Shown: positions 868 through 45,384 of the stretch, in pieces
Layout of the letters: the number at the start of each line of letters is the position of its first letter
Numbering within the stretch: the first letter of the stretch is position 1
Source: Vagococcus teuberi
GTDB taxonomy: Bacteria; Bacillota; Bacilli; Lactobacillales; Vagococcaceae
Assembly: GCF_001870205.1 (NCBI RefSeq)
Contig: NZ_CP017267.1
Span: 1,600,501-1,664,500 of the forward strand
Length of the DNA stretch: 64,000 bases
Direction: 5' to 3'
Made by a program: the position numbers and the translations under genes
Notes under the pieces: generated by a model
Told to the model about the DNA's origin: nothing
The model's database searches: none
What the model saw: only the letters and a program-made list of their open reading frames with translations

Positions 868-1165
868 AACTCTTTTTCAAGAGTATATACCTGTTTTTAA
901 AACATTTAGAAAGTATCAAGAAGAAATAAAAAATACTTTTGAAACATCGTATTCAAACGGTCCTTTAGAATGTATGAACAATCATATTAAAGTCATTAAG
1001 CGTAATGCCTATGGCATGAGAAGTTTTTATAATTTCAAATTACGAATAGCAATTTGTTTAAAAAAATCTGTATTCAAGACACCAAAAAGATCTAGAAAAC
1101 ATGTTGTTTTCTAGATCTTAAATTCTAACGTTTTAACTCTTACCAACACTAGTTGACAAAGAGCC
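868..1165 (+). mobile_element. Truncated ISL3-family element (right end only)
   Basis: This stretch is nearly identical to 12036-12333 of the complete ISL3 copy. It encodes the last ~75 transposase residues (from EYIPVFKTFRKYQEE), the same AGATCT-rich hairpin and the right inverted repeat ending GAGCC at 1165. The left part was displaced by the IS1182 insertion at about 867. It differs from the complete copy at a functional position: it keeps Arg in IKRNAYG, where the complete copy has Cys. The 8 bases outside the right end (1166-1173) are part of the T-tract of the tagD terminator on the minus strand. Confidence 0.92.
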
Positions 1166-1172
1166 AAATAAA

Positions 1173-1210
1173 AAATCGCATTGATAGAATTTAATCTATC
1201 AACACGATTT
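1173..1210 (-). terminator. Intrinsic terminator of tagD
   Basis: The arms AAATCG + TTGATAGA pair with TCTATCAA + CGATTT around a 6-base loop. On the minus strand a T-rich run follows. This lies ~85 bases past the tagD stop. The ISL3 right end abuts the T-run. Confidence 0.8.
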
Positions 1211-1296
1211 AGTGTACATCCATAAATATGAGATTCCTCTCACAGTCATCATCTTACAAATTTAGCTCATAAGTCTTATTTAACAAAGGACATTCA

Positions 1297-1692
1297 TCAT
1301 CTCTTATTCAAATCTTTTTTGATTTGTGTTGTTGATATTTCTGGTGTGCGTTCAAGATAAACAACGTCAGCACCTGTTTCTTTTACAAAATCAAATTTAC
1401 CTTTCCAATCATCGCCCATGACAAACACATCAACTTTAAACTCTTCAATGTCTGTCATCTTTTGGTTCCAACTCTCTTCAGGTATGACCAAGTCAACATA
1501 ACGAATCGCTTCTAAAAGCATCTTTCTCTTTTCATATGAGAAATAACATTTCTTTTGCTTTTCGTCCCAGTTGAATTCATCAGTAGACAAGGCAACAATC
1601 AGATAATCGCCTTGCTCTTTTGCACGACGTAATAAATTAATATGTCCGTAGTGTAATAAATCAAATGTACCATATGTAATAACTTTTCTCAC
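1297..1692 (-). CDS. tagD: Glycerol-3-phosphate cytidylyltransferase
   Basis: Makes CDP-glycerol from CTP and glycerol 3-phosphate, the building block for glycerol-phosphate teichoic acids. The 131-residue length matches TagD/TarD. The nucleotidyltransferase motif GTFDLLHYGH is at residues 8-17 and the second signature TPEISTTQIKK is near the C-terminus. The start is a GTG (1692) preceded by GAGG. It acts in the cytosol and would supply the TagB/TagF-type enzymes encoded at 29612-37009, although it lies ~28 kb away from them. The upstream gene ends 20 bases away, so the two may be cotranscribed. Confidence 0.95.
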   Translation of the reverse strand: MRKVITYGTFDLLHYGHINLLRRAKEQGDYLIVALSTDEFNWDEKQKKCYFSYEKRKMLLEAIRYVDLVIPEESWNQKMTDIEEFKVDVFVMGDDWKGKFDFVKETGADVVYLERTPEISTTQIKKDLNKR

Positions 1693-1711
1693 TGTTATAC
1701 CTCACTATCTA

Positions 1712-3064
1712 TTAATCATCATCGCGTGATTTGTAATATTTATCTTCTTCTTCATCTTCTACCTCATTGATCGTCACTAATATCTCTAGTAAGCGAGTGC
1801 CTTCTGCTTTATACGTCGTTAAATCAATATGATCAACATGAATGGTTAAACGTTCGTCCTTTTCAGGAATTACACCAAGCTCTGTAATCATAAAACCTGC
1901 CATCGTATCAACATCCGTCATAGAGATATTCGTACCAAACTTTTCATTAAAGTCATTGATTGGCATACGAGCTTCGATTAAGAATTCATTGTCACTCACT
2001 TGTTTTAATAAATGGTCAATCGTTAATTCATCAGATTCATCATCTATTTCACCAACAATTTCTTCTAACAAGTCCTCAAATGTTACTAAGCCAGATACTC
2101 CACCATACTCATCTAATAAAATTGCCATATGGTTTTGAGTCTTTTTCAGCTCTAACAATAAATCATCAATAAATATGGTTTCAGGAACATAAAGTGGTTC
2201 ATGAATCACATTTAATAAGTTTAAATTTTCAAACCCTTTACTACGAGCTTCTTTTAGTAAATTTTTAAGATGCAATATCCCAATGACTTTGTCTTTGTCA
2301 TCGTCATAAACTGGGATTCGTGAGAAATTGTTTGCTAATACTTTATCAATATTTTCTTCTGCAGAATCATGGATATCTATCATAAAGGCTTCTGTACGAG
2401 GTACCATTACTTCTCTTGCCATCGTTGTATCTAAATCAAAAATCCCTTGAACCATCTCTAATTCGTCAGAATCTAATACACCTTCATTCGTCAAAAGATA
2501 GGCCATCTCTTCACGTGTCATTCGTTCATTTTCATCATCAAATGTCATTGGGGTGATACGGCTCAATAAATTAGTCGAGCTTGACAACAACCATACAAAT
2601 GGTCTCATTACCTTACCTAATAATGTGATAGGTCCCATTACAAATCCTGCCACAGCTTCAGGATTGTTTAAAGCGATTCGTTTAGGATATAATTCACCAA
2701 ACACAATTGAGATATACGTTAATAAGATTAAAACAATGACTTGCGAAGCTTGTTTCGCCCAAGGAGCTCCACCAAAAACAGGTGCTAACTCTCTAGCAAA
2801 CGAATTGGCTAATGAAGCCCCTGATAAAATAGTCACTAAAGTAATTCCTACTTGAATCGTAGACAAAAAATTGCTTGAATCATTAATCAATGCCAGTAAT
2901 TTTATCGCCGTTTTATTTCCCTCTTCTGCTTTACTTTCCAGTCTATTACGGTTTACCGAAATAACGGAAACCTCCGCAGCTGCAAAAAAGGCGTTTAGTA
3001 ATGTTAACACAATCAAAATAATAATATTGATAAAAATAGACTGACTCTCGGGGTCAGCGTTCAT
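1712..3064 (-). CDS. CNNM/CorC-family membrane protein (DUF21-CBS-CorC)
   Basis: A 450-residue protein with the classic hemolysin-C-like order: an N-terminal DUF21 membrane domain with about four hydrophobic segments (residues ~10-170), a CBS pair (~215-340, with REVMVPRTEAFMIDI at its start) and a C-terminal CorC_HlyC domain (~355-435). Family members are proposed Mg2+/Co2+ exporters or regulators of Mg2+ homeostasis; the hemolysin name is historical. The C-terminus is very acidic (EVEDEEEDKYYKSRDDD). Ion specificity cannot be read from the sequence. Confidence 0.9.
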   Translation of the reverse strand: MNADPESQSIFINIIILIVLTLLNAFFAAAEVSVISVNRNRLESKAEEGNKTAIKLLALINDSSNFLSTIQVGITLVTILSGASLANSFARELAPVFGGAPWAKQASQVIVLILLTYISIVFGELYPKRIALNNPEAVAGFVMGPITLLGKVMRPFVWLLSSSTNLLSRITPMTFDDENERMTREEMAYLLTNEGVLDSDELEMVQGIFDLDTTMAREVMVPRTEAFMIDIHDSAEENIDKVLANNFSRIPVYDDDKDKVIGILHLKNLLKEARSKGFENLNLLNVIHEPLYVPETIFIDDLLLELKKTQNHMAILLDEYGGVSGLVTFEDLLEEIVGEIDDESDELTIDHLLKQVSDNEFLIEARMPINDFNEKFGTNISMTDVDTMAGFMITELGVIPEKDERLTIHVDHIDLTTYKAEGTRLLEILVTINEVEDEEEDKYYKSRDDD

Positions 3065-3164
3065 AAGCTTTTCTCTCCTAACTTTTTCGTTCTTTTTAAT
3101 ATTCCTCCAAAAATCGTATCATAAACATCAATTAAATTCAATATAAAAGATATAGCTAAACAAA

Positions 3165-4277
3165 TTATTTAACGGGAGTATTTTCTTTTTTAATTCGTTT
3201 ATCAAGCTGAACCATATCATAGACATAAACAACAATCGTCTTACATACTGCATAAAATGGCACACCTAAAATCATTCCAAGTAGTCCAGCAATATTTCCA
3301 GCAACCAGTAAAATGATAATAATAGTTAATGGATGAATATCTAAACTCTTCCCTATCACATTTGGGTAAATAATATTTCCATCTATCTGTTGGACAATTA
3401 ATACAACAATACATGCCAGAACAGCTTTAACTGGATCCGTAAATATCGTCACAAATAAAGCAGGAGCTAACCCGATATAGGGACCAATGTATGGAATCAT
3501 ATTTGAAAGACCTGCTATTACACCAAATAAAAAGGCATAATTGACACCTATCAACATGTATCCAATACTTGTTGCAACCCCAACGAACAGACACTCAATC
3601 ATTTGTCCACTAATATATTTTGAAATTGTTTGACTCATTTTTATCAGTAATTCTGTCATTTCTTTACGATGCGTTTCTGGGAAAAAACGTGCCACATTTG
3701 GTAAAAAACGTTCCCCATCTTTTAACATATAAAATAAAATAAACGGCACCGTAAAGATAATCATAACAATTCCAGCTATAGAAGAAATAAATGATCCTAA
3801 CCCATTTCCTAAACTAGATATTGTCGTCTTAATAATATTTCCAAATGACACATTCCACTGTTCTAAATATTGTTGAATATCAACATTTTTCATAACAGGA
3901 TGGTGCGCTAATTCATTGATTGTTTTTTCTATTGCTATATAAAAGTCTGGTGCAGCTTTTGTTAACATGGTCATTTGTTTAATCAAATTCGGAATGACCG
4001 ACATAATAAGTAATAACACGACACCTATCAAAAAAATCATGATAATTGACACAGCCCATGTCCGTTTAATCCCTTTTTTAATCATAAACTGTAAAATTGG
4101 GTTGACACAATAAAATAAAAAACCGGATATAATAATCGGTGCAAACATTGTTGTAAATAGTGTTCCAATTGGTTTAAAGATAAAATTGATTTTCGTTCCA
4201 ACTAAAATTAATGTTGCAATAATCAATAGCTCTAGTGACCAAAACATTAATTTAGAAGCCTTAATTTTTTGTAGCAT
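3165..4277 (-). CDS. AI-2E family (TqsA/PerM-like) transporter
   Basis: A 370-residue integral membrane protein with an N-terminal pair of hydrophobic helices, a soluble loop (~75-145) and a cluster of C-terminal helices containing the family-typical GLSNMIPYIGPYIGLAPALF and LLGMILGVPFYAV. Members export small molecules or ions; in E. coli TqsA affects autoinducer-2 export, but most Firmicute members have no tested substrate. It is transcribed alone, 100 bases before the CNNM gene and divergent from the GNAT gene. Substrate unknown. Confidence 0.9.
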   Translation of the reverse strand: MLQKIKASKLMFWSLELLIIATLILVGTKINFIFKPIGTLFTTMFAPIIISGFLFYCVNPILQFMIKKGIKRTWAVSIIMIFLIGVVLLLIMSVIPNLIKQMTMLTKAAPDFYIAIEKTINELAHHPVMKNVDIQQYLEQWNVSFGNIIKTTISSLGNGLGSFISSIAGIVMIIFTVPFILFYMLKDGERFLPNVARFFPETHRKEMTELLIKMSQTISKYISGQMIECLFVGVATSIGYMLIGVNYAFLFGVIAGLSNMIPYIGPYIGLAPALFVTIFTDPVKAVLACIVVLIVQQIDGNIIYPNVIGKSLDIHPLTIIIILLVAGNIAGLLGMILGVPFYAVCKTIVVYVYDMVQLDKRIKKENTPVK

Positions 4278-4388
4278 AAATTCCCCTCACTTTATCTAAC
4301 TTTTACGTATTCTTATTATAATCTATTTGTTTTAAAAAAACTGTTAATTTGATAAACTTATTAAAAGCATAACAAAGGAGATACACAA

Positions 4389-4823
4389 ATGGCAAACTTA
4401 ATTCATACACAAGATCTTACGTCAAAAGTATATGAAGATGCTAAACGCATTAGACTAGACGTATTTGTTATAGAACAACACGTACCAGAATCGATTGAAA
4501 TCGCTGATGAAGATCAAGCAATTCATTGTGTATTATATGATGACAACCAGCAGGCTTTAGGTACTGTAAGATTACTTCCTATTGATGAGACAACAATGAA
4601 AATCCAACGCATGGCAGTTGCTAAAGATGCTCGTGGAAAAGGAATTGGTATACAACTCATGAACTACGCAGAGCAAGTAGCAACAAAATACCAGGCAAAC
4701 ACACTCATTTTAGGAGCACAACAACACGCGTTAGGTTTCTATCACTCTTTAGGGTATGAGCCTTTTGGGAATCCCTACATCGAAGCAAATATCCAGCACC
4801 AAAACATGAAAAAAACGGTATAA
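4389..4823 (+). CDS. GNAT-family N-acetyltransferase
   Basis: A 144-residue acetyltransferase of the ElaA/YjcF type. It has the N-terminal VYEDAKRIRLDVFVIEQHVPESIE and the acetyl-CoA binding motif A (IQRMAVAKDARGKGIGIQLM, with the Arg-x-x-Gly-x-Gly loop). An AAAGGAG site lies 7 bases before the ATG. It transfers an acetyl group from acetyl-CoA to an unknown amine. A bidirectional terminator follows directly. Confidence 0.9.
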   Translation: MANLIHTQDLTSKVYEDAKRIRLDVFVIEQHVPESIEIADEDQAIHCVLYDDNQQALGTVRLLPIDETTMKIQRMAVAKDARGKGIGIQLMNYAEQVATKYQANTLILGAQQHALGFYHSLGYEPFGNPYIEANIQHQNMKKTV

Positions 4824-4827
4824 AAAT

Positions 4828-4866
4828 AAACAGGATACTTTTTAGTGAAGTTTCCTGTTTTTTTAT
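4828..4866 (+). terminator. Bidirectional terminator between the GNAT gene and a small membrane protein gene
   Basis: AAACAGGA...ACTT pairs with AAGT...TCCTGTTT, followed by seven Ts on the plus strand; the minus strand also has a T-rich tail. It separates two convergent genes. Confidence 0.85.
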
Positions 4867-4874
4867 TCGAATAA

Positions 4875-5084
4875 TTACACTTCTTTAATCGACATCACTT
4901 GTTTTTCTTTACTATAATTAATAGATGCTTTTTTTGGTATTGTAAGGATTTTTTTTTCAGGTTCAATGACTTCTCTAATCACTTTTTCTGAGGCAGTTGT
5001 TCTTGATTCGTACACTTTCAATAGCATCAAACCAATACACAATACAGCACTTACTAAAAATAGGATAGATAGTTTTTTCTTCAC
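4875..5084 (-). CDS. Small single-pass membrane protein, unknown function
   Basis: A 69-residue product with a lysine-rich start, one hydrophobic helix (residues ~6-22, ILFLVSAVLCIGLMLL) and a charged tail of about 45 residues that would face the outside. A GGAGGG site precedes the ATG. It resembles no family I recognise. It is convergent with the GNAT gene and shares its terminator. Confidence 0.65.
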   Translation of the reverse strand: MKKKLSILFLVSAVLCIGLMLLKVYESRTTASEKVIREVIEPEKKILTIPKKASINYSKEKQVMSIKEV

Positions 5085-5261
5085 TTAAATACCCTCCTTT
5101 ATTCATCTTGTAAAAATTATAACATAATTTCTTCAAACAAATTCGTTATTTTTTTCGTTTCAAAATGACAAAAAATAACGAAAGACTTCAAACATTTAAA
5201 ATCTCTCGCTATTTTTTTGTAGTGCTTATCAAACCCTGAATTTACGAAACACACAGTTATT

Positions 5262-5795
5262 TCATTTTCTTGATAATTGTTGATACCGTTTATACCAAAT
5301 ATCGACATACTCATCAGAGAAAGGACCTTTTCCTTCATTAATCCAGTCTACTAAAATCTTCACATTTTCTTTAAGAACAATATCAATTTCATTTGGATAG
5401 TTCATTAGTTTTCGATGATCTTCATACTCGTCAACATCCAACAAGCGTTTTTCTCCATCAGGAAACACTTTTATGTCCAAATCATAATCAATATACTTTA
5501 AAGCCTCCTCATCTAAAACATAAGGTGAGGCAAGATTACAATAGTAGGAAACTCCTTTCTCTCGTATCATAGCAATTATGTTGAACCAATATTTTGTATG
5601 GAAATATACAATAGCAGGTTCACGCGTCACCCATCGTCGTCCATCTGACTCTGTCACAAGTGTATGGTCATTCATACCAATTATCGAACATTCACTTGTT
5701 TTTAGGACCATTGTGTCGCGCCAAGTTCGATGTAAACTTCCGTCATGCTTGTAACTTTGGATCGTGATAAACTCTCCTTCTTTAGGAACACGCAT
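5262..5795 (-). CDS. DUF402 nucleoside di/triphosphate phosphatase-like protein
   Basis: A 177-residue DUF402 (UPF0374) protein. Characterised staphylococcal relatives hydrolyse nucleoside tri- and diphosphates. Family features visible are [17 protein letters not shown] near the N-terminus, [28 protein letters not shown] in the middle and the acidic [25 protein letters not shown], which supplies metal ligands. The ATG at 5795 is preferred over a GTG three bases upstream. The gene stands alone. The function comes from the family and was not derived independently. Confidence 0.85.
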
Positions 5796-5910
5796 CACTA
5801 TCTAATCCTGCTTTCCTTGACAAATTGTGTCAATTTTTCACATGGGTATTAAATTTAACCTTTAACACCAATATCAGAATTATTATAGCATATCTTAGCC
5901 TATGATATCA

Positions 5911-7050
5911 CTAATTATTCATACTTTTCTTTAGTAAGTCGACCATCTTTTGCTGTGGTTTTGGAAAAACATACTGATCAAACTCTTCTTGATAGACCCA
6001 TTTTTGTTTTTCTAACATTTCACGATCTGTGTCTCTCAATAAATCCTCAACTACTAACACATGCCATTTTCTATGACTAAAAATATGTGTCACAATGCCT
6101 AAAAGTTGTTTTTCTTTGATGTCTATTTTTTCTTCTTCATACAAGCTCAATTGCTCTGCTACTTGTAACTCTTTTTTTTCAACAGAGTCATAAGATGCCA
6201 CTAAACGATCATAGTCTTCTTTTGTAACGTCACGCATGGGAAATGTCCACATGTTTGAAAGCAAACCATCTTCTGGTCTTTTCTCCAATAAAAAAGCACC
6301 CGTTTTATTTCTAATCACATCTGCCACATAGTAAAGTGGCTTCGCTTTTTCTTTTTTCTTCTTCACTGGATAAGAAGATGCTGTGTCTGTTTTTTTAGCC
6401 TCACAATAATGTTTTATTGGACACGTCTCACATGATGGTTTAGTCGGTGTACAAATTGTGGCACCTAAATCCATCAACGCCTGATTAAAATCACCAGGTT
6501 CAGTTTGTGACATGGTTTCTCTCACATACTTATCAAAAACTTTTCGTGTTTTAGGTAACGCGATATCATCAGACAAACAAAATAAGCGACTGTATACTCG
6601 CATCACGTTTCCATCAATTGCCGGCTCTGGCAACGAAAAAGCAATACTTCCAATCGCTCCACCTGTATAAGGACCTATTCCCTTTAATGATAATATGTCT
6701 TCTATCGTCTGTGGCATTTTCCCATCAAACGTTTCGACCATTTCTTTTGCCGCATGTTGCATGTTGCGAACACGAGAGTAATATCCCAAACCTTCCCATG
6801 CTTTTAGTAGTTTATCTTCTTCAGCATTTGCCAAATCTTCTATCGTGGGAAACCACTCCATAAACCGATTAAAATATGGAATCACCGTTACGACTTGCGT
6901 TTGTTGTAGCATAATCTCAGACACCCATACTCGGTATGGATCTGTCGACTCTCGCCACGGTAAATCTCGTTTTTCATGATGATACCATGCCAACAAATCA
7001 TCTTGAAAGCTCTCTATCTTCTCTTGCGTCCAAGTTACTTCTTCACTCAT
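5911..7050 (-). CDS. mutY: Adenine DNA glycosylase MutY
   Basis: Removes adenine mispaired with 8-oxoguanine in base-excision repair. The 379 residues cover an N-terminal HhH-GPD domain (MLQQTQVVTVIPYF, then LKGIGPYTGGAIGSIAF with the hairpin, and the catalytic Asp in EPAIDGNVMRV), the iron-sulphur cluster C-x6-C-x2-C-x5-C (CTPTKPSCETCPIKHYC) and a C-terminal NUDIX-like 8-oxoG recognition domain (from ~235). The gene follows recX by 3 bases, so the two are probably cotranscribed. Confidence 0.96.
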   Translation of the reverse strand: MSEEVTWTQEKIESFQDDLLAWYHHEKRDLPWRESTDPYRVWVSEIMLQQTQVVTVIPYFNRFMEWFPTIEDLANAEEDKLLKAWEGLGYYSRVRNMQHAAKEMVETFDGKMPQTIEDILSLKGIGPYTGGAIGSIAFSLPEPAIDGNVMRVYSRLFCLSDDIALPKTRKVFDKYVRETMSQTEPGDFNQALMDLGATICTPTKPSCETCPIKHYCEAKKTDTASSYPVKKKKEKAKPLYYVADVIRNKTGAFLLEKRPEDGLLSNMWTFPMRDVTKEDYDRLVASYDSVEKKELQVAEQLSLYEEEKIDIKEKQLLGIVTHIFSHRKWHVLVVEDLLRDTDREMLEKQKWVYQEEFDQYVFPKPQQKMVDLLKKSMNN

Positions 7051-7053
7051 CTC

Positions 7054-7845: not shown

Positions 7846-7889
7846 TTTCTTTCAGCCCCCTTGCACCTTTTTACTATATCACATTTTAA

Positions 7890-8666: not shown

Positions 8667-8675
8667 GATTATCAC

Positions 8676-8856
8676 TCCTAAGTTTACGTTTTTTAATTAC
8701 ACCTTATATTAACATATTCAAGTTATTTTAAAAGCGTTTTCATACAAAAATAATTAATTTTACGCAGAAAATTCAAATTTTGGTTTTTTCCTGATTGTCA
8801 AAAATTATCTATACTCACAGTGGCTAGCCAAATGATAACTTGAAAGGATAATTTTT
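8676..8856. promoter_or_regulatory. Divergent control region of the ComK-like and sigma factor genes
   Basis: An AT-rich 180-base region. Toward the sigma gene a weak promoter can be drawn: TTTCCT (8787-8792), a 17-base spacer and TATACT (8810-8815). Just upstream lie A-tract/T-tract palindromes resembling ComK AT-boxes (AAAA...TTTT), but with 6 and 7 intervening bases instead of the 5 known for ComK. Whether they are operators is unproven. Confidence 0.4.
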
Positions 8857-10760: not shown

Positions 10761-10809
10761 CCCTCCACGAGAAATCAAATTGACTTCTTGTGGGGGAGTT
10801 TGTTTATTT
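10761..10809 (+). terminator. Lysozyme gene terminator, interrupted by the ISL3 element
   Basis: CCCTCCACGAGAA (10761-10773) pairs with TTCTTGTGGGGGAG (10785-10798), and the T-rich tail continues to 10809, where the ISL3 left end begins. The last 8 bases of the tail, GTTTATTT, are the target duplication and reappear at 12334-12341. Confidence 0.85.
10802..10809 (+). repeat. 8-bp target-site duplication, left copy (partner 12334-12341)
   Basis: GTTTATTT occurs directly outside both ends of the ISL3 element. Eight bases is the usual ISL3 duplication length, so this fixes the element boundaries at 10810 and 12333. Confidence 0.95.
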
Positions 10810-10909
10810 GGCTCTATAATTTCTACTGTTGGTAACAAAAGTTACCGGCAGTTTTTTTGGGCTCTATAATTTCTACTGTTGGTAACGAAAGTTACCGGCC
10901 GTTTTTAGT
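10810..10909 (+). repeat. Tandem ~50-bp ISL3 left ends
   Basis: Unit 1 (10810-10859) and unit 2 (from 10860) both start with the ISL3 left inverted repeat, then a GGTAAC/GTTACC mini-palindrome and a T-run. They differ at a few positions (CAAAA versus CGAAA, GGCAG versus GGCCG, and T-run length). Unit 1 matches the single left end of the copy at 45153, so the doubling is probably a composite and not a simple recent duplication. Confidence 0.9.
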
Positions 10910-10973
10910 ACACAAAAACATGTGTTATCCGTTAGAATGAAATTGCGAAACAACAATCTAAGGAGGATACCAC

Positions 10974-12263
10974 ATGTCATACTCACAGACTATCAAAGAT
11001 ATCTTAAATATACTAGACCTAAATATTATTTTTAATGAAAATTGTTTGTTTACTAGGAAAATAAAGGGAGTTTTCTCTAGAGTATTTGAAGGTTTTTTAG
11101 ATGAAACACCAGAATGTTGTCCTCATTGCGAAGAAAAGGATACACACATTATTAAGTGGGGATATACTGCTAGTTTAATTAAAGTTCCTGCTATTTCTGA
11201 ATACGTTACATATGTTCAATTAAAGAAACGTCGTTTCTTGTGCAAAGATTGTAAATCGACATTTGTTTTAGATACGCCTTTTGTTTCTAGAAACAATTCT
11301 ATTTCTAACAATTTAAAACGTCTTGTTGCTAAAAAACTAACTTCTAAACAATCTATGAGTGACATTTCAAAACAAGCAAACGTTTCTACTTCAACTGTTT
11401 ATCGGGTACTTAAAGAATGGTATCAACCCATTCAGAAATATAGTTATTCCTTACCAGCTGTTCTTTGTTTTGATGAGTTTAAATCTGTCAAAAAAGTAGC
11501 TGGATCTATGAGTTTTATTATGATAGATGGTGACACTAAGGAGTTAATTGATATTTTACCTGATCGAAGATTACCTAAGATCGAGAAATACTTTAACGGA
11601 TTCTCTTTATCTAACAGAGAACAAGTGAAGTATGTTGTTTCTGATATTTATCAACCCTACATCATCTTAACTAAGAGACTTTTTCCTAATGCTAAAGTCG
11701 TTTTAGATAAATTTCATCTAGTTCAACACATTGGTAGAGCTTTTCAAAAAATACGAATTAGAATAATGAATCAATTAAAGCATAAAAATAATGGAATTAT
11801 TTATAGACGAATAAAAAAATATTGGAAATTACTTCAAAAAAGTTATGGCAAACTAGACTTTATTCAACAACAATGGCACTCTTCATTTAAAACGTATCTT
11901 TCTGAAAAAGAATTACTTGAACGCCTACTTACTTACAATGCTGAACTTACAGATGCTTATAATATTTATCAACAGATTTTAAGAGCTTTTCAAACAAAAG
12001 ATTATTCTTTATTTGTAGATTTAATCAATCAAAAAACTCTTTTTCAAGAGTATATACCTGTTTTTAAAACATTTAGAAAGTATCAAGAAGAAATAAAAAA
12101 TACTTTTGAAACATCGTATTCAAACGGTCCTTTAGAATGTATGAACAATCATATTAAAGTCATTAAGTGTAATGCCTATGGCATGAGAAGTTTTTATAAT
12201 TTCAAATTACGAATAGCAATTTGTTTAAAAAAATCTGTATTCAAGACACCAAAAAAGATCTAG
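10974..12263 (+). CDS. ISL3-family transposase
   Basis: A 429-residue DDE transposase of usual family length. It has an N-terminal zinc-binding part (CCPHCEEKDTH and FLCKDCKSTF, residues ~42-90), a helix-turn-helix (MSDISKQANVSTSTVYRVLKEW, ~125-150) and a DDE core: LCFDEFKSVK (~165), VVSDIYQPY...VLDKFHLVQHI (~225-255) and the Glu in NGPLECMNNHIK (~385). Just after that Glu it reads KCNAYG, where the truncated copy has KRNAYG; the Arg is usual in the family, so this copy may be weakened. AGGAGG lies 8 bases before the ATG. A gene-end hairpin lies at 12257-12285. Confidence 0.95.
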   Translation: MSYSQTIKDILNILDLNIIFNENCLFTRKIKGVFSRVFEGFLDETPECCPHCEEKDTHIIKWGYTASLIKVPAISEYVTYVQLKKRRFLCKDCKSTFVLDTPFVSRNNSISNNLKRLVAKKLTSKQSMSDISKQANVSTSTVYRVLKEWYQPIQKYSYSLPAVLCFDEFKSVKKVAGSMSFIMIDGDTKELIDILPDRRLPKIEKYFNGFSLSNREQVKYVVSDIYQPYIILTKRLFPNAKVVLDKFHLVQHIGRAFQKIRIRIMNQLKHKNNGIIYRRIKKYWKLLQKSYGKLDFIQQQWHSSFKTYLSEKELLERLLTYNAELTDAYNIYQQILRAFQTKDYSLFVDLINQKTLFQEYIPVFKTFRKYQEEIKNTFETSYSNGPLECMNNHIKVIKCNAYGMRSFYNFKLRIAICLKKSVFKTPKKI

Positions 12264-12285
12264 AAAACATGTTGTTTTCTAGATC
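12257..12285 (+). terminator. Hairpin at the end of the ISL3 transposase gene
   Basis: GATCTAGAAAACA pairs with the complementary arm ending at 12285. The same hairpin is present in the truncated copy near 1090-1120. It overlaps the transposase stop codon and has no long T-tract, so it may act in either direction. Confidence 0.6.
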
Positions 12286-12333
12286 CTAAATTCTAACGTT
12301 TTAACTCTTACCAACAGTAGTTGACAAAGAGCC

Positions 12334-12341
12334 GTTTATTT
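12334..12341 (+). repeat. 8-bp target-site duplication, right copy
   Basis: GTTTATTT is identical to 10802-10809. It also contains the stop codon of the minus-strand mnaA gene (12336-12338), so the duplication kept that gene intact. Confidence 0.95.
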
Positions 12342-16514: not shown

Positions 16515-16515
16515 A

Positions 16516-38054: not shown

Positions 38055-38164
38055 GTTGACCCATCCTATTCTTTTTCAGTTCGTTAAAACTACACCATTT
38101 TACACTATTATCTGTATTTTATCAAAGTTTCATCCTAAATTTAAGTCATTCTTCATCATTTAAA

Positions 38165-38199
38165 AAAAGAGTTTAAGGGACAATCCCCTAAACTCTTTT
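38165..38199 (-). terminator. Terminator of the LCP gene
   Basis: A 16-base stem (AAAAGAGTTTAGGGGA on the minus strand) with a 3-base loop and seven Ts downstream. It overlaps the LCP stop codon (38198-38200) and separates this gene from tagH. Confidence 0.9.
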
Positions 38200-39349
38200 A
38201 ATAATCATCAATTGCCATCCCATCTTGTGGATAGGTTCTTGGGTCAACAAGTCCATCCGTTTCAAACTTGTAACTTGCGTCATCACGATCGTCGGCTTTT
38301 TCTAACCCTAAAGATAGACGTAATTTATGTGAAATGTAGTCTATACTATCTTTATGTAACCCCACCATACTTTGCTCACCATAGTTATAACTCATCCATG
38401 AAAAGACGTATGAATCAAACTTATAGTCTTTCGTTAAACCAGATTGCGCTACTGATAAAATACGACTTGGTGGCATATCGGTTGTTACATGACCATCTAA
38501 TGCGTTCAATATGCTCTTATACTTTGCCAATGATCCCACTTCCATGGCTTTTTGAGCAATAGCCTCAAGCACTTCTTGTTGACGTTTTCCTCGTTCAATA
38601 TCATTATCAACATAACGAGTTCTTGCAAATGCTAGTGCTTCTTCACCGTTTAAATTATGCTTTCCTTCTTTTAGTTTCACTACTTTTTTGCCTTTTGAAT
38701 TCTGTTCTGTCAACGTAAACGGAACATCAATTTCTACTCCACCAACTGCATTAACAACATCTTCAAATGCCTGGAAATCTGCTGTCGCGTAATAATTGAT
38801 TGGGACATTTAATAGTTCTTCCACAGCCGTTATAGATCCTTCTACCCCACCGTGAGCATATGCTGCATTTATTTTATCGTTTCCATCAAAATTTTTAGTA
38901 GAAATATGTGTATAGGTATCACGTGGAATACTTACCATGCTGACAAGCTCATTTGACGGATTGATTGTTAATAGAATCATTGAATCCGTCCTAGCACCGC
39001 CTGTTCCTCGAGTATCCTCTGCATCATCATCAAGACCAAGTAAAAGAATAGAAATTGGGTCTTTTTGCACATCAATCTTCTCATTTTCTACTTGACTTGT
39101 CTCTCTTGGCTTATAAGCATCATTTAAAAATTTATTACCATCGACTACCATCTTAATACCGTATACGACAATTCCCAAAAGAGAGATGGCGAGCAATACA
39201 CCCAAAATTTTGCTAATACTCAATAGTGTCTTCTTTAACCCAGAATCTTTCTTGCGATTATTTTTTCTAGAGTGTAAGGAACTGAATTCTTGTATTTTAA
39301 GATTTTTGTCAGTTTTTTTCTGATTTTTTTTATTTTTCTTTTTACTCAC
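38198..39349 (-). CDS. LytR-CpsA-Psr (LCP) family phosphotransferase
   Basis: A 383-residue membrane-anchored enzyme with a very basic cytosolic start (MSKKKNKKNQKKTDK), one helix (~45-68) and a large extracytoplasmic LCP domain. Catalytic features are ILLLGLDDDAEDTRGTGGARTDSMILLTI, SIPRDTYTHI (~140) and EALAFARTRYVDNDIERGKRQQEVLEAI with the key Arg and Asp residues. LCP enzymes attach lipid-linked teichoic acids or capsule to peptidoglycan. Both loci beside it could be its clients; the position next to tagH suggests teichoic acid. Confidence 0.93.
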   Translation of the reverse strand: MSKKKNKKNQKKTDKNLKIQEFSSLHSRKNNRKKDSGLKKTLLSISKILGVLLAISLLGIVVYGIKMVVDGNKFLNDAYKPRETSQVENEKIDVQKDPISILLLGLDDDAEDTRGTGGARTDSMILLTINPSNELVSMVSIPRDTYTHISTKNFDGNDKINAAYAHGGVEGSITAVEELLNVPINYYATADFQAFEDVVNAVGGVEIDVPFTLTEQNSKGKKVVKLKEGKHNLNGEEALAFARTRYVDNDIERGKRQQEVLEAIAQKAMEVGSLAKYKSILNALDGHVTTDMPPSRILSVAQSGLTKDYKFDSYVFSWMSYNYGEQSMVGLHKDSIDYISHKLRLSLGLEKADDRDDASYKFETDGLVDPRTYPQDGMAIDDY

Positions 39350-39485
39350 TCTATCAATCTCCTAGATAATAAATAATATAGTAACATAATTTCAATCTAA
39401 GATAGTATAGCATAATGAGAAATTTTTATGGTACTAATCTAATATTTTTATACTTTTTTAAAGAATTCTTATATTTAGAATTAAA

Positions 39486-39515
39486 TTGTGCATTAAAGAG
39501 TTGCCGTGCTATAAT
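39486..39515 (+). promoter_or_regulatory. Vegetative promoter of tagO
   Basis: TTGTGC (39486-39491), an 18-base spacer and a perfect TATAAT (39510-39515), 30 bases before the tagO ATG. Confidence 0.75.
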
Positions 39516-39545
39516 ATGTGTTGAATTCTGAAAGTAGGTAAGAGA

Positions 39546-40682
39546 ATGGACTTTATTTTTGAAATATCATTTCGTTTAGTTTTAACGATGCTCTTTTCTT
39601 TTATTATAACACCTTTCATTCGTAAATTAGCCTTTGTCATTGGAGCAGTTGATCAACCTAATAAGCGACGAATCAATACTAAACCAATGCCTACTGCAGG
39701 TGGATTAGCTATTTTTATCACATTTTCATTATCCATTTTATTTTTATTTGATGATATTATTCCAACAAGCTACGCCTTGCACTTGATTATTCCTTCAGGG
39801 ATTATTGTCATAACTGGGTTAATTGATGACATTTTTGAAATTACTCCCAAACAAAAAATGATTGGTATTATATTAGCCGCACTCTATGTGTGTTTTGTTT
39901 TCGATATTATCATGCACTCAATTACATTACCTTATTTTGGTACGATTGAATTTGGTTGGTTAAGCTATCCTATTACTATTTTATGGATTGCTGGATTAAC
40001 AAATGCCATTAACTTAATTGATGGACTCGATGGTTTAGCATCCGGTGTGTCGATTATTGCGTTGACAACTATTGGGATTATCGGATACATTGGGGCCTCT
40101 ACCGGAGCAGTGAATATTGTGGTCCCTCTTAGTATTTTTATTTTGCTGATGAGTACATTGGGATTTTTCCCCTTTAATTTCTTTCCAGCAAAAATTTATT
40201 TGGGGGATACTGGTGCTTTATTTTTAGGTTTTTTGATCTCGTTATTATCCTTACAAGGTCTAAAAAACGCTACCTTTATCTCGCTTATCACACCACTTAT
40301 TATTTTAGGCGTTCCTTTAACAGATACTGTATTTGCAATGATTAGACGAATACTCAATAAAAAACCTATCTCATCAGCCGATAAAATGCATTTGCATCAC
40401 CGACTTATTTCATTAGGATTTACGCATCGTGGAGCGGTTATTATGATTTATTGTATGGCATTAATCTTTTCGCTTATTTCATTTTTATATTTGTTTACCA
40501 ATACATGGGGTAATGTTTTTCTCACTATCGCCTCTTTACTAGGTTTACAACTATTTATCGAATTAATCGAATTGAGCGGAGAAAATCGCCAACCTCTACT
40601 TCACACGTTAAAATTTATTGGGAATAAAGCATATCGAAAAAGAAAACTAACGGAATACGAGCAAAAAAAAAAGAAAGAATAA
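39546..40682 (+). CDS. tagO: Undecaprenyl-phosphate GlcNAc-1-phosphate transferase TagO
   Basis: A 378-residue enzyme that starts teichoic acid synthesis by transferring GlcNAc-1-phosphate from UDP-GlcNAc to undecaprenyl phosphate. About ten membrane helices. Motifs are AVDQPNKRRINTKPMPTAGG (~36-55), GLIDDIFEITPKQK with the Asp-Asp pair (~96), NAINLIDGLDGLASG (~157), FFPAKIYLGDTGALFLGF (~220) and KMHLHHRLISLGF (~282). It is divergent from the LCP gene and convergent with yihY-like. It could also supply lipid intermediates to other GlcNAc-based polymers. Confidence 0.96.
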   Translation: MDFIFEISFRLVLTMLFSFIITPFIRKLAFVIGAVDQPNKRRINTKPMPTAGGLAIFITFSLSILFLFDDIIPTSYALHLIIPSGIIVITGLIDDIFEITPKQKMIGIILAALYVCFVFDIIMHSITLPYFGTIEFGWLSYPITILWIAGLTNAINLIDGLDGLASGVSIIALTTIGIIGYIGASTGAVNIVVPLSIFILLMSTLGFFPFNFFPAKIYLGDTGALFLGFLISLLSLQGLKNATFISLITPLIILGVPLTDTVFAMIRRILNKKPISSADKMHLHHRLISLGFTHRGAVIMIYCMALIFSLISFLYLFTNTWGNVFLTIASLLGLQLFIELIELSGENRQPLLHTLKFIGNKAYRKRKLTEYEQKKKKE

Positions 40683-40709
40683 CTCACTGAATCAGTGAGT
40701 TATTCTTTC
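40674..40709. terminator. Bidirectional terminator made of two convergent gene ends
   Basis: A nearly perfect palindrome with arms of about 17 bases (AAAGAATAACTCACTGA and its complement). It contains the stop codons of both tagO (40680-40682) and the yihY-like gene (40700-40702). T-runs follow on both strands. Confidence 0.9.
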
Positions 40710-41626
40710 TTTTTTTCTTTTCGCTTTGCTTTAACTTGTTTCATCCTAGTTTCCACGTAATGGCTAACAAAACTTTCTTTAGGATTAATTGGACCATATA
40801 AAAATTTTTCAACCGTCACGTTTATTACGCCACCAATAATAATAATTGACGAGGCAATATTCAGCCAAAACATAAAGAGAATAAACCCTCCAATAATACC
40901 GTAACTAGAAATTTTCCCTGAAAAATGCGTCACATATAAGCTAAATAATTGAGTAACCAACATCCATGTTAACGTGGTAAAAACGGCACCAAACAAAATC
41001 GTTTTAAAATGAATTTTCGCACTTGGTAAAAAATAATAGATACACATCATAACAACAAATAAAACAGAGATTGTTACTGGCCACCGTAGCGTTTGAAATG
41101 TTGATAGTATATCTTCAGGCATACCAACAATTGGCAGTAAGTGTTCTAATATGACTTGACCAAATCCCATGATAAACATTAATACCAATAAAGCAAGCAT
41201 CAATAGAAACACCATAAAAAATGATAATAATCGCCTGATAACTTGTGTTTTTTGTTTAGAAATACCATATGCTTTATCCAAACTTATTCGTATCCCATTT
41301 ATCCCTTTACTAATAGCCCAAAATGTACCTAATGCGGAAATTGATAATAATCCACCATTACTTTTCGTTAATAAATCCTCTATCGTATCTTTTAAAATAC
41401 GATAAATATCCGGTGGTAATAATTCTCGTATATATGGGTAAATTTGTGTTTCATCAATTTTTAAATAAGGTAATATGTTACCAATCACAATGAGGAGTGG
41501 AAAAAAAGACAGCAACATATAATAAGTAACGACAATCGAGTAGATAGTAACATCCGCCTGTTTTAAAGTAGATAAAAAGTCTCTGATAAACGATCGCCAA
41601 TCCTTCTTTTCTGTAGTTTTTTCCAT
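40700..41626 (-). CDS. YihY/BrkB family inner-membrane protein
   Basis: A 308-residue protein with six hydrophobic segments and the family features LLSFFPLLIVIGN (~38), FWAISKGINGIRISLDKAYG (~105), YFLPSAKIHFKTILFGAVFTTLTWMLVTQLFSLYV (~190-225) and SSYGIIGGFILFMFWLNIASSIIIIGGVIN (~235-265). The C-terminus is basic (KAKRKEKKKE). The family was once named ribonuclease BN; a transport or envelope role is more likely but unproven. It follows map by 15 bases and is probably cotranscribed with it. Confidence 0.9.
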   Translation of the reverse strand: MEKTTEKKDWRSFIRDFLSTLKQADVTIYSIVVTYYMLLSFFPLLIVIGNILPYLKIDETQIYPYIRELLPPDIYRILKDTIEDLLTKSNGGLLSISALGTFWAISKGINGIRISLDKAYGISKQKTQVIRRLLSFFMVFLLMLALLVLMFIMGFGQVILEHLLPIVGMPEDILSTFQTLRWPVTISVLFVVMMCIYYFLPSAKIHFKTILFGAVFTTLTWMLVTQLFSLYVTHFSGKISSYGIIGGFILFMFWLNIASSIIIIGGVINVTVEKFLYGPINPKESFVSHYVETRMKQVKAKRKEKKKE

Positions 41627-41641
41627 TTCCTTTAAACGCTC

Positions 41642-42394
41642 CTATTCATCTTGTAAAGTTAAGATTCTCGGTCCATCAGCAGTAATGGCAATTGTATGCT
41701 CATACTGACAACTTAAACCACCATCTTGTGTTCTTGCAGTCCAACCATTGTTATCCATTTTCATTTGCCAAGTTCCGGTATTTACCATTGGTTCAATCGT
41801 AATAACCATCCCTTCTTTTAATCTTAGTCCTTTTCCAGCTTGTCCATAGTGAGGAACAGATGGCGCTTCATGGATAGTTGGCCCAATTCCATGTCCAATA
41901 AAATCTCGAACGACAGAAAGATTTTCACCTTCAACGTATGTCTGAATCGCATGACCGATATCGCCAATACGATTGCCAACTGTTGCTTGCTCAATCCCTT
42001 TGTAAAGAGCTTTTTCCGTTACTTCCATTAAATGGTCAATTTCTGGTGTTGATTTTCCAACAACATACGCCCAACAAGAATCTGACATAGCCCCTTTTAA
42101 ATCAATACACATATCAACTTTGATTAAATCGCCATCTTTTAATGGTGTTTTTCTTGGAAATCCATGACAGATTTCATCATTAATACTACAGCACGTTGCA
42201 TACTCATAGCCTTCGTATCCGATCTGAGCGGCAACCCCACCATGATCTTCAATCATATTTCTAACAAATACTTCAATATCCCAGCTTGTTATACCTGGTT
42301 TTATAAAATCTCTTAACGCTTCATGAACACTAGCTAATAATTGACCAGATTTTTCCATTTCATCTATTTCTCTTGCTGATTTTAATGTAATCAT
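41642..42394 (-). CDS. map: Methionine aminopeptidase, type I
   Basis: Removes the initiator methionine from nascent proteins. At 250 residues it fits type Ia. The five metal ligands are recognisable: Asp in DLIKVDMCID (~94) and SDSCWAYVVG (~105), His in FIGHGIGPTIHEAP (~170), and Glu in VITIEPMVNTG (~203) and CQYEHTIAIT (~234). Its gene is divergent from the flavodoxin gene. Confidence 0.95.
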   Translation of the reverse strand: MITLKSAREIDEMEKSGQLLASVHEALRDFIKPGITSWDIEVFVRNMIEDHGGVAAQIGYEGYEYATCCSINDEICHGFPRKTPLKDGDLIKVDMCIDLKGAMSDSCWAYVVGKSTPEIDHLMEVTEKALYKGIEQATVGNRIGDIGHAIQTYVEGENLSVVRDFIGHGIGPTIHEAPSVPHYGQAGKGLRLKEGMVITIEPMVNTGTWQMKMDNNGWTARTQDGGLSCQYEHTIAITADGPRILTLQDE

Positions 42395-42478
42395 GTTTAT
42401 TTTCGCTCCTTTTCATCTTTGCTTTCTTATTCTAGCATAAACACACCCGTTCGACAAAATTAGCAAAAGATAAATTTA

Positions 42479-42506
42479 TTGAAAACTGGTGTGTATTTGT
42501 TATAAT
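42479..42506 (+). promoter_or_regulatory. Flavodoxin gene promoter
   Basis: TTGAAA (42479-42484), a 16-base spacer and TATAAT (42501-42506), 37 bases before the ATG, with AAAGAGG just upstream of the start. Confidence 0.75.
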
Positions 42507-42542
42507 TTTTTTAAATGATTATGTAGAGGAAAGAGGAAAAAC

Positions 42543-42986
42543 ATGGCTATTGCAAAAATTGTTTATGCAAGTCTTACTGGCAACACGGAAGAAATAGCAG
42601 ATATCGTAGCAGAACGTTTAGAAGAAAAAGGGTTAGACGTTGAGATTGAGGAATGTACACAAGTTGATGCTGAAGAGTTTTTAGATGCAGATATTTGTAT
42701 TGTCGGTAGTTATACCTATGATGATGTCTTAGTTCCAGATGAAATTGCTGACTTTTATGAAGATTTATTAGAACTGGATTTAACTGGAAAAATATATGGT
42801 GTCATCGGATCTGGAGACACCTTTTATCCATGTTTCTGCCAAGTAGTCGATCAGTTTGATAAAGCGTTCCAATCAACTGGTGCGATAAAAGGTGCTGAGT
42901 CCGTTAAAGTTGACTTAGCTGCTGAAGAAGATGATATTGTTGCTCTTGAAGCATTTGCAGATGCATTAGTAAAACAACTTGATTAA
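42543..42986 (+). CDS. Flavodoxin
   Basis: A 147-residue FMN-binding electron carrier. The phosphate-binding loop ASLTGNTEEIADIV is at residues 9-22; the isoalloxazine-binding loops are SYTYDDVLVPDE (~57) and GSGDTFYPCFCQVVDQFDKAF (~90). Strongly acidic overall, as expected for flavodoxins. It is short-chain type. Its partner reductase is not in this window. A 42-base perfect palindrome follows it as terminator. Confidence 0.94.
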   Translation: MAIAKIVYASLTGNTEEIADIVAERLEEKGLDVEIEECTQVDAEEFLDADICIVGSYTYDDVLVPDEIADFYEDLLELDLTGKIYGVIGSGDTFYPCFCQVVDQFDKAFQSTGAIKGAESVKVDLAAEEDDIVALEAFADALVKQLD

Positions 42987-43007
42987 GCACACTATCTAAA
43001 CATATAA

Positions 43008-43049
43008 AAACCGCGTAAAGTCGATTTCGAAATCGACTTTACGCGGTTT
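43008..43049. terminator. 42-base perfect palindromic bidirectional terminator
   Basis: Two 21-base arms are exact inverse complements (AAACCGCGTAAAGTCGATTTC and its partner), with A/T runs on both sides. It lies between convergent flavodoxin and TetR genes. The arms are more GC-rich than the surroundings. Confidence 0.92.
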
Positions 43050-43068
43050 ATTTATTTAATCATTTAAC

Positions 43069-43644
43069 TCACTTTAATTTTGTTAAACTAACCTTAGGGT
43101 GCTTTTTAGACATTTCAATAACATTTTTAATTATAACTTCGATTTCTTCAACTGTGGGTTTAGCCCTGTTAGAAGCTGCTAATGAAGATAATCCTACGCT
43201 CATAACCCAACAATTAGTAAATATTGCTTCTTTCACTTCATCAGATAGTTTCGCGTACACATCATCCTGATTAATTTTGTCATAAAACAAATTACGTGTA
43301 AACTTATTTAGTTTCGTCCCACTATCGTGATTATCTACAAAAAGTGCTTTGTAAAAGACACTGTTTTCAGAAGCAAATTTTACATAATTAACTATCAAAT
43401 CAACAATACAATCGTCTGTATAGCTTTGATTGTAAACTTCATTTCTTAAACCAGCTGTCACTTGATCGATAAAAACATTACGTAACTCATCCATATTTTT
43501 AAACTCCAAATAAATTGGTTGAGTTGATGTTTTCATTTTATTCGCAATATTCCTTGCGGTAAATCCACTAAATCCTTCAGTCGAAATCACTTCAAACACT
43601 GCTGATAGGATATGTTCTCGTGTAATTGTCTTTTTCCTAGCCAT
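43069..43644 (-). CDS. TetR/AcrR family transcriptional regulator
   Basis: A 191-residue repressor type. The start is ATG 43644 (MARKKTITREHILSAVF), preceded by AAAGGAGAGG; an ATG at 43692 would add 16 residues not seen in the family. The N-terminal helix-turn-helix spans ~8-55 (VFEVISTEGFSGFTARNIANKMKTSTQPIYLEFKNMDEL). The C-terminal ligand domain ends in PTVEEIEVIIKNVIEMSKKHP. No adjacent target gene is obvious. Ligand unknown. Confidence 0.9.
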   Translation of the reverse strand: MARKKTITREHILSAVFEVISTEGFSGFTARNIANKMKTSTQPIYLEFKNMDELRNVFIDQVTAGLRNEVYNQSYTDDCIVDLIVNYVKFASENSVFYKALFVDNHDSGTKLNKFTRNLFYDKINQDDVYAKLSDEVKEAIFTNCWVMSVGLSSLAASNRAKPTVEEIEVIIKNVIEMSKKHPKVSLTKLK

Positions 43645-43907
43645 AAAAACCTCTCCTTTGTCCTTAAAATGTTTATAAAATGAACAATACATGTCAATCT
43701 ACACTTATTTAATGTATTATAACATGAACTTATGAGCAAACAAATAAATATATCAGAAAAAGCATCCATTTTTTTGATATAAAGCAATATTTTAGAAAAT
43801 AAGACAGGAGTGTGGAAAGGCATCACAACAGTTATAAATGCTCGAATTTGTTCTCATCTCTATCGTATGCTAATATAATGTTATGATAATTCTAGGAGGA
43901 TGATAAC

Positions 43908-45146
43908 ATGGTATTAAATAACTTCGATCATTTATTACAAAAATATGCTGAATTAATTACTAAAGTTGGTGTAAATGTATCTAAATCACACACTGTTGTC
44001 TTAAATATACAAGTAGAACAAGTACCTCTTGCTCGTTATATTGTTAAAGAAGCATACAAGTTAGGAGCGAAGCAAGTTGTTGTTCAATGGTCAGATGACT
44101 TTATAAACAGAGAGTTTTTCTTACATGCTGATGATGACGTTATCTCTAACGTTCCTGACTATAAAATTGAAGAAGCAAATGATTGGGTGGAAAAAGGAGC
44201 GAGTCGTATTAGTGTCGTATCTCAAAATCCTGATGCGTTCTCTGGTGTAGATGGAGATCGTTTAGCAACTTTCCAATCAGTAAATGGAAAAGCAATGATG
44301 CCACTACGACAAGCAACACAAGCAAACAAATTAAGCTGGACTGTTGTTGCTGCTGCTGGTAGTGACTGGGCAAAAAAAGTATTCCCTGAATTAACATCTA
44401 ACGAAGAACAAGTTGATGCATTATGGGATGCTATTTTTAAAGCTTGTCGTATGTACGAAACGGATCCTATTGAAGCTTGGCATCATCATGATAAGACGTT
44501 AGAAACAAAAGCAGATGAATTAAATGCTCATCAATTTGATGCTCTACATTATACCGCACCTGGTACTGATCTAGTAGTCGGTCTTCCAGAACATCATCAT
44601 TGGGAAGGTGCTGGCAGTAAAAATGCTCGTGGCGAACGTTTCATGGCAAATATGCCAACTGAAGAAGTCTTTACAGCTCCTGATTGTCGTCGTATTGACG
44701 GTATTGTATCAAGCACAAAACCGTTAAGCTATGCTGGAAATACAATTGAAAACATGGTCTTTACATTTAAAGATGGCAAAGTCGTTGATGTCACTGCAGA
44801 AAAAGGCGAAGATGTATTGAAAAAATTATTAGAAACAGATGAAGGAGCGAAAAGTTTAGGTGAAGTCGCTCTTGTACCAGATAGCTCTCCAATTTCTCAA
44901 TCTGGTATTACTTTCTTTAATACTCTTTTTGATGAAAATGCTTCAAATCATTTAGCTTTGGGTAGTGCTTATGCCTTTAATATTGAAGGCGGCACAGAAA
45001 TGACTGAAGAAGAGCTATCAAAAGCTGGATTAAATCGTAGTCAAACACATGTTGACTTTATGATTGGTTCTAATCAAATGAATATAGATGGTATCAAAAC
45101 AGATGGTACTAAAGTGCCAATATTCAGAAATGGTGAATGGGCATAA
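43908..45146 (+). CDS. M29 family metallo-aminopeptidase (PepS/AmpS-like)
   Basis: A 412-residue aminopeptidase that trims N-terminal residues from peptides. Metal-binding and catalytic parts typical of M29: FMANMPTEEVFTAPDCRRIDGIVSSTKPL (~247, with the conserved Glu), EVALVPDSSPISQSGITFFNTLFDENASNHLALGSAY (~323, with the His) and THVDFMIGSNQMNIDG (~380, with the His and Asp). AGGAGG is followed by the second of two close ATGs. Its terminator was split off by the short ISL3 derivative at 45153. Confidence 0.93.
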   Translation: MVLNNFDHLLQKYAELITKVGVNVSKSHTVVLNIQVEQVPLARYIVKEAYKLGAKQVVVQWSDDFINREFFLHADDDVISNVPDYKIEEANDWVEKGASRISVVSQNPDAFSGVDGDRLATFQSVNGKAMMPLRQATQANKLSWTVVAAAGSDWAKKVFPELTSNEEQVDALWDAIFKACRMYETDPIEAWHHHDKTLETKADELNAHQFDALHYTAPGTDLVVGLPEHHHWEGAGSKNARGERFMANMPTEEVFTAPDCRRIDGIVSSTKPLSYAGNTIENMVFTFKDGKVVDVTAEKGEDVLKKLLETDEGAKSLGEVALVPDSSPISQSGITFFNTLFDENASNHLALGSAYAFNIEGGTEMTEEELSKAGLNRSQTHVDFMIGSNQMNIDGIKTDGTKVPIFRNGEWA

Positions 45147-45152
45147 AAAAAG
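45145..45152 (+). repeat. 8-bp target duplication of the short ISL3 derivative (partner 45355-45362)
   Basis: AAAAAAAG flanks both sides of the 202-bp element. The left copy contributes to the aminopeptidase stop region; the right copy is the start of the terminator stem. Confidence 0.85.
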
Positions 45153-45354
45153 GGCTCTATAATTTCTACTGTTGGTAACAAAAGTTACCGGCAGTTTTTT
45201 TGTACACAACAACATGTGATATCCGTTAGAATGAATTGTAAAAAACCAGGAAGATACCACATGTCATATTCACAGACTATCAAAGATATCTTAAATATAC
45301 TGTATCCTAAATTCTAACGTTTGAACTCTTACCAACACTAGTTGACAAAAAGCC
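45153..45354 (+). mobile_element. 202-bp internally deleted ISL3 derivative (MITE-like)
   Basis: It retains the ISL3 left end through the transposase start (about 150 bases, including the ATG and its first 13 codons) and the last ~50 bases with the right inverted repeat. About 1.2 kb is missing between ATATACT and ATCCTAAATTC; both borders of the deletion in the complete copy contain CTAGA, suggesting microhomology. Flanked by 8-bp duplications, so it either moved as a short element using a transposase supplied in trans, or was deleted after insertion. It carries one left end, identical to unit 1 of the full copy for the first ~50 bases. Confidence 0.93.
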
Positions 45355-45384
45355 AAAAAAAGTGGGCAGTTTGCCCACTTTTTT
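45355..45384. terminator. Bidirectional terminator between the aminopeptidase gene and thiI
   Basis: GTGGGCA (45362-45368) pairs with TGCCCAC (45372-45378), flanked by an A-run and a T-run. On the minus strand it terminates thiI, whose stop codon it touches. The ISL3 derivative entered the A-run. Confidence 0.9.

Follow-up and report, generated by a model that had tools for sequence, protein, structure and literature searches.

Introduction

The closest described parallel to the insertion sequence (IS) elements analyzed here is IS1272/TnSha1 of Staphylococcus, a member of the IS1182 family that inserts at DNA hairpins, several of them confirmed terminators, with no sequence consensus, and that makes blunt cuts by which part of the hairpin is deleted and no target duplication arises (PMC4923244). 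The insertion sites of bacterial class C group II introns lie downstream of Rho-independent terminators (PMC3522654), and ISPpu9 has been found in extragenic palindromes of the REP (repetitive extragenic palindromic) kind (PMC8450116). For Tn7 (TnsE), IS608/ISDra2, and other elements, orientation follows replication, with contacts to the beta-clamp (PMC5371812). Elements of the ISL3 family are over-represented between genes of the same direction (PMC9208149), and an ISL3-linked vanHAX insertion with an 8-bp duplication in Enterococcus faecium lies about halfway through the terminator of an rRNA operon (PMC11702846). We found no statement of a terminator-targeting rule for ISL3 elements in the open-access literature; subscription papers were not covered. 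Here, we analyze where and in which orientation ISL3 elements of Bacillota insert, including the copies in a 64,000-nucleotide stretch of Vagococcus teuberi (contig NZ_CP017267.1, positions 1,600,501 to 1,664,500; here, the window).

ISL3 elements are about 1.3 to 1.8 kb long, have GG..CC ends, and generate an 8-bp target duplication. Judged from the sequences of their insertion sites, those of Bacillota almost certainly target AT-rich octamers that mostly adjoin the base of a terminator-like hairpin. Moreover, they appear to insert preferentially with the transposase gene pointing toward the oncoming replication fork and, usually, also toward the 3' end of the neighboring gene. The hosts in our sample are Vagococcus, Enterococcus, Streptococcus, Holdemania, and further Lactobacillales.

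Results

Hairpins were called by folding 46-base windows on each side of the duplicated octamer as RNA without G-U pairs, with a threshold of ≤−8 kcal/mol; this replaced an earlier custom scorer that missed long loops. A three-window score adds a third window centered on the octamer. All elements studied are from Bacillota. By this score, 108 of 150 ISL3 insertions with an 8-bp duplication have a hairpin beside or across the duplication. Intergenic octamers with matching A+T and run length would give ∼33 of 150, and controls taken from the 80 bases that follow gene ends would give ∼53 of 150. The 150 sites comprise 53 from Vagococcus (set 1), 41 from a scan of named genomes (set 2), and 56 from a further set (set 3).

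Set 1 contains 53 distinct insertions from 102 candidate end pairs, those with more than one octamer mismatch having been left unscored; six genomes and six element types are represented. Their octamers are AT-rich (at least six A/T in 50/53). Hairpins were called at 30/53 sites with two windows and at 36/53 with three. Controls were drawn from the window, which belongs to genome G000, and from 240 kb of the other Vagococcus genomes G007, G008, and G009 (302,310 positions); G001 is a further genome of the genus. With two windows, 8.9 sites were expected at intergenic positions matched for octamer and flank A+T, 10.2 after further matching for run length and for A or T content, and 16.4 in the 80 nt that follow gene ends (p=2e-5); with three windows, the expectations were 11.7 (matched intergenic) and 19.1 (near gene ends) vs the 36 observed. 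Set 2 derives from a scan with an alignment of five transposases, which gave 80 loci, 41 of them with clear ends and a duplication. Hairpins were called at 29/41 and 31/41 sites (two and three windows), with expectations of 8.8 and 10.1 at matched intergenic positions in the loci's own flanks and of 12.1 and 14.2 near gene ends. By genus, the counts were 12/12 in Enterococcus, 11/14 in Streptococcus, 4/8 in Holdemania, and 4/7 in others, which include one Vagococcus with a hairpin (L200, Vagococcus vulneris) and one Carnobacterium without. For set 3, 80 loci, chiefly from other Lactobacillales, were filtered for an exact 8-bp duplication and inverted repeats matching at ≥15/24 bases, and the resulting 56 sites (three from Vagococcus) were scored with all settings fixed. 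Hairpins were called at 32/56 and 41/56 sites, vs 9.5 and 11.5 expected at intergenic positions and 16.8 and 19.9 near gene ends, the latter from only 2,019 control positions; hairpin sites occur in 10 of 11 genomes. Both the hairpins and the octamers differ in sequence from site to site, and therefore no common primary sequence explains the choice of site. A T-run alone as the target is ruled out by the run-matched controls.

The hairpin and the octamer stand in a close geometric relation. A side window contains a hairpin at 91 sites, and at 60 of these the gap between the outermost G-C pair and the octamer is −1 to +3 bases; the same gap is found for 913 of 2,509 hairpin-bearing intergenic controls (36%; p=3e-8). 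Of the 91 hairpins, 50 lie on the side of the element's right end and 41 on that of its left end, ruling out a fixed side, and 17 more sites fold only in the octamer-centered window. That octamers lie on both sides, together with the 17 octamer-centered folds, points to the dyad rather than to RNA polymerase at the T-tract alone. This geometry is as expected from recognition of a dyad with an A/T junction; a requirement for a T-run alone would not give it.

Two other IS families of the same genus behave differently. Hairpins were called at only 3 of 38 IS256-type insertions (those of 50 copies that have a duplication) and at 0 of 7 IS3-type insertions. Within a single genome, G007, the counts are 16/25 for ISL3 and 3/28 for IS256 sites (p=1e-4). 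These negatives argue that the hairpin matters and not the T-run only.

Several points weigh against hairpin targeting as a general rule. At the threshold of −8 kcal/mol, 42 of the 150 sites (28%) have no hairpin; among them, L131 has a long-looped hairpin by eye, and L060 and L061 have none. The Holdemania sites reach only one-half, the excess over the strictest control is about two-fold, and the three IS256 types are not uniformly negative (hairpins at 3/10, 0/19, and 0/9 sites). By a crude call, 16/150 sites lie inside an open reading frame (ORF). The threshold was chosen after viewing set 1 and then left unchanged for sets 2 and 3, genes are represented by ORFs only, terminators are predicted, and the sites are survivors of selection rather than observed transposition events. 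Moreover, the sites are not fully independent: L040 and L148 are neighbors in one locus, L053 is at a similar hairpin, and L081 and L094 lie in other ISL3 elements. Three further copies of type D (L347 to L349), which are outside the 150, have a hairpin in one case.

The orientation of the elements is also biased. With the origin placed at dnaA and the terminus assumed to be opposite, sets 1 and 3 together have 109 sites, of which 104 could be assigned a fork direction; no site of set 2 could be assigned one. The transposase gene is head-on to the fork at 73 sites and co-directional at 31 (p=5e-5), an orientation bias of the kind seen in fork-oriented elements. At sites with a hairpin, the ratio is 56:17; at sites without, it is 17:14, and the bias is absent. 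At tandem sites, which lie between genes of one direction, 55 elements point their transposase gene toward the 3' end of the upstream gene and 16 point it the other way (p=4e-6), and between convergent gene pairs the element is head-on to the fork in 23 cases vs 9. Orientation was first noticed in sets 1 and 2 (tandem ratios of 13:4 and 18:3) and retested in set 3, where the tandem ratio is 24:9 (p=0.014) and the fork ratio 40:12 (p=1.3e-4). In G007, the ratio to the fork is 16:9 for ISL3 copies and 24:16, not significant, for IS256 copies. On the other side of the balance, the fork bias in set 1 alone is 33:19 (p=0.07), and fork and gene direction are so strongly correlated that only five tandem sites separate them; four of these follow the fork and one follows the gene, and three of the five have no hairpin. 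Taken together, the orientation bias is very probably real. The ratio at convergent pairs and the four of five discordant sites make replication a better guess than transcription as its source, a guess that is unproven.

The elements themselves carry terminator-like structures pointing inward. In 37 of 38 representative elements, some of near-identical type, the first 90 bases of the left end contain a hairpin of ≤−12 kcal/mol followed by at least five T in nine bases, compared with 1.4% of shuffled left ends and 0.7% of interior 90-mers. This hairpin mostly begins near base 15, with the inner half of the inverted repeat as its first arm. For the right end, an inward scan of 150 bases gave a terminator-like hairpin in 34/38 elements, a count that has no shuffled control.

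Within the window, the first-pass annotation had placed all three ISL3 insertions in terminator T-tracts; this holds for two of them, and the third has the end of another ISL3 element as its target. The complete copy (10810..12333, plus strand), a type A element, lies, as proposed, in the T-tail of the lysozyme terminator, with GTTTATTT duplicated at 10802..10809 and 12334..12341 (plus strand) and, six bases ahead of the duplication, a terminator-like hairpin after the GH25 lysozyme gene (G/C core at 10762..10795, plus strand; −12.6 kcal/mol). The sole large ORF of this copy (10974..12263, plus strand) encodes a DDE transposase of 429 amino acids with the domains DDE_Tnp_ISL3 (PF01610, E=2.1e-52), HTH_Tnp_ISL3, and Zn_ribbon_ISL3. 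Consistent with membership in the ISL3 family, the inverted repeats are imperfect and start with GG, the length falls at ∼1.3 to 1.8 kb, and the duplication is an exact 8 bp at 50/53 Vagococcus sites and has one mismatch at 3/53. The first-pass annotation missed a doubling of the left end in the complete copy, which has one left end at 10810 and another at 10860. The outer of the two is a solo end (10810..10859, plus strand) with an internal hairpin and T-run (flank fold of −10.7 kcal/mol), and the T-run of this internal terminator is directly followed by the inner, full element, which begins at 10860. This arrangement looks like an insertion into the element's own end, followed by the loss of one right end. 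Elsewhere in G000, a further type A copy (C1:2047585-2049119; L004 and L012) has a tandem left end 61 bases apart, and its outer end sits in a terminator-like T-tail (CTACCAGTCATGTGGCTGGTAGTTTTTTTG). In G009, a B' element (L094) has its octamer, by eye, in the left-end hairpin of another B' element.

The second insertion is a 202-bp derivative of the type A element (45153..45354, plus strand) that has an internal deletion and retains both ends. It lies in the terminator run of thiI, as the first-pass annotation had it, between two copies of AAAAAAAG (45145..45152 and 45355..45362, plus strand), which read CTTTTTTT from thiI. The first two bases of the left copy are part of the stop codon of an M29 peptidase gene, and the right copy runs into the terminator-like hairpin GTGGGCAGTTTGCCCAC (45362..45378, minus strand; −15.8 kcal/mol), which is thus directly at the duplication. 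Because thiI is on the minus strand (45386-46600) and the M29 peptidase gene on the plus strand, the octamer can be assigned to thiI, as the T-tail of its terminator.

This site can be compared across the genus. G009, the closest relative by the neighboring peptidase (97% identical protein), has the site in its IS-free form with the hairpin intact. In G007, a different ISL3 element (type B; L446) lies after the same peptidase gene, with an octamer that starts at the last base of the stop codon. Twelve genomes of the genus are IS-free at this site, and in seven of them a hairpin of ≤−12.5 kcal/mol forms no more than 45 bases from the peptidase stop codon. The spacer after this gene (window positions 45143-45380) has taken two independent insertions, one of a type A derivative in G000 and one of a type B element in G007.

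The third insertion (868..1165, plus strand), which had been described as a truncated copy adjoining the tagD terminator, needs correction on both counts. Rather than a simple truncation, it looks like the right part of a type A copy split by another element, whose DDE_Tnp_1_6 transposase is encoded at 103..804 (plus strand), with the left part of the split copy starting outside the window (G000:C1:1598640). An 8-bp duplication sought by eye at the outer flanks of this copy was not seen. Adjoining its right end are the internal hairpin and T-run of a B' element, a second ISL3 type, whose left end (1166..1221, minus strand; fold of −13.8 kcal/mol) has 53/56 bases identical to the left end of L066. 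Therefore, the adjoining T-run belongs to the hairpin of that element and not to the tagD terminator.

Two further observations concern these elements. The DDE_Tnp_1_6 (IS1182-like) element has the 16-base palindrome ACTCTTTTTCAAGAGT on both sides (window positions 103-900; also L003:2660-2760) and represents a second IS family at a small hairpin, which it apparently duplicates, whereas IS1272 deletes part of its hairpin. At loci L154 to L159, G000 holds several shortened B' copies of ∼330 to 1,050 bases that look like decaying elements.

Discussion

We suggest that these observations are best explained by hairpin targeting with a fork-facing orientation, recognition of DNA structure, and self-insulation, and we assign this reading a probability of roughly 0.7. 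In this model, the transposase complex would recognize DNA structure at the dyad rather than sequence: a cruciform, or a hairpin extruded from one strand, with an A/T junction that melts easily. The replication fork would expose this structure and thereby fix the orientation, and the element's own terminators would restore insulation on both sides, keeping the cost of insertion low. For the mechanism of structure plus fork, taken separately, we see even odds.

The first-pass annotation had argued that terminator targeting goes beyond an A+T preference, and had proposed scoring the flanks of other copies for hairpins against random intergenic AT-rich octamers. The scoring bears it out: over the three sets, hairpins are about twice as frequent as in the strictest matched control and about three times as frequent as at matched intergenic octamers, and the IS256 and IS3 elements are negative. 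Its emphasis on the T-run has to be shifted, because the common feature is not the T-run itself but the base of the hairpin, with octamers on either side of or within it. Its suggestion that insertion at terminators would spare genes as the element spreads is plausible and in keeping with the terminator-like hairpins that point inward from the two ends. The orientation toward fork and gene end and these inward hairpins are new and go beyond what it had claimed.

Two alternatives deserve discussion, both of them unlikely. In the first, RNA polymerase paused at a terminator, an R-loop, or supercoiling recruits the transposase and orients it against transcription. The clustering of sites after gene ends and the 55:16 ratio at tandem sites are what such coupling would give. 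However, convergent pairs, which receive transcription from both sides, still follow the fork 23:9, as do 4/5 sites at which gene and fork disagree (only 2/5 have a hairpin), and octamers are found upstream of, inside, and downstream of hairpins. In the second, with about the same low likelihood, targeting is blind to orientation, and selection alone creates the bias, in that read-through from a host gene over-expresses the transposase and such insertions are lost. The inward hairpins at both ends do suggest that read-through is costly, and of the two genes in a convergent pair, the fork-directed one may just happen to be stronger. Against this, the element's terminators should leave orientation nearly neutral, and sites without hairpins show no bias (17:14). 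Finally, a mere preference for A/T-rich octamers or runs, with purifying selection leaving sites downstream of genes where terminators lie, is very improbable: octamers are indeed AT-rich and limiting controls to 80 nt after gene ends lifts the expectation for set 1 from 10.2 to 16.4, but the two-window counts exceed the gene-end control in all sets (30 vs 16.4, 29 vs 12.1, and 32 vs 16.8), the gap between hairpin and octamer is sharper than in control hairpins, IS256 in the same genus gives 3/38, and no orientation bias limited to hairpin sites is predicted.

Returning to structure recognition at the fork, the hairpin and T-run of the left end are the same kind of structure as the target, and one surface of the transposase may therefore read the same folded DNA in the donor end and in the target. 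This picture of terminator-seeking, terminator-carrying transposons is speculative, and we regard it as rather doubtful. If true, it would account for elements being nested within their own ends, for the orientation rule, and for the dozens of copies that they can reach (G007 has 37 transposase matches). More broadly, a general insertion rule makes new ISL3 insertions more predictable and offers a reason for their spread, and the question of how transposases find DNA secondary structure becomes a simple plasmid experiment.

How do ISL3 elements compare with the systems described previously? Like IS1272, they are found at terminator hairpins, but they belong to a different transposase family and make an 8-bp duplication that mostly adjoins the hairpin; the joined sites still fold, and G009 has an IS-free ortholog, whereas IS1272 insertion leaves no duplication and a partly deleted hairpin. 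ISL3 would thus be a second, mechanistically different DNA transposon that reads hairpin structure, apparently coupled to the direction of replication. Class C group II introns are RNA retroelements that base-pair with IBS (intron-binding site) motifs and are defined by an intron RNA and a reverse transcriptase, while ISL3 elements are DDE transposons, as is evident from the ORF of the element in the window. ISPpu9 targets one repeat family, and ISL3 targets terminators in general. The fork-oriented Tn7 and IS200/IS605 elements share an orientation bias with ISL3 and are not described in that account (PMC5371812) as targeting terminator hairpins. Lastly, the vanHAX insertion of E. faecium fits the terminator rule that we propose here for ISL3.

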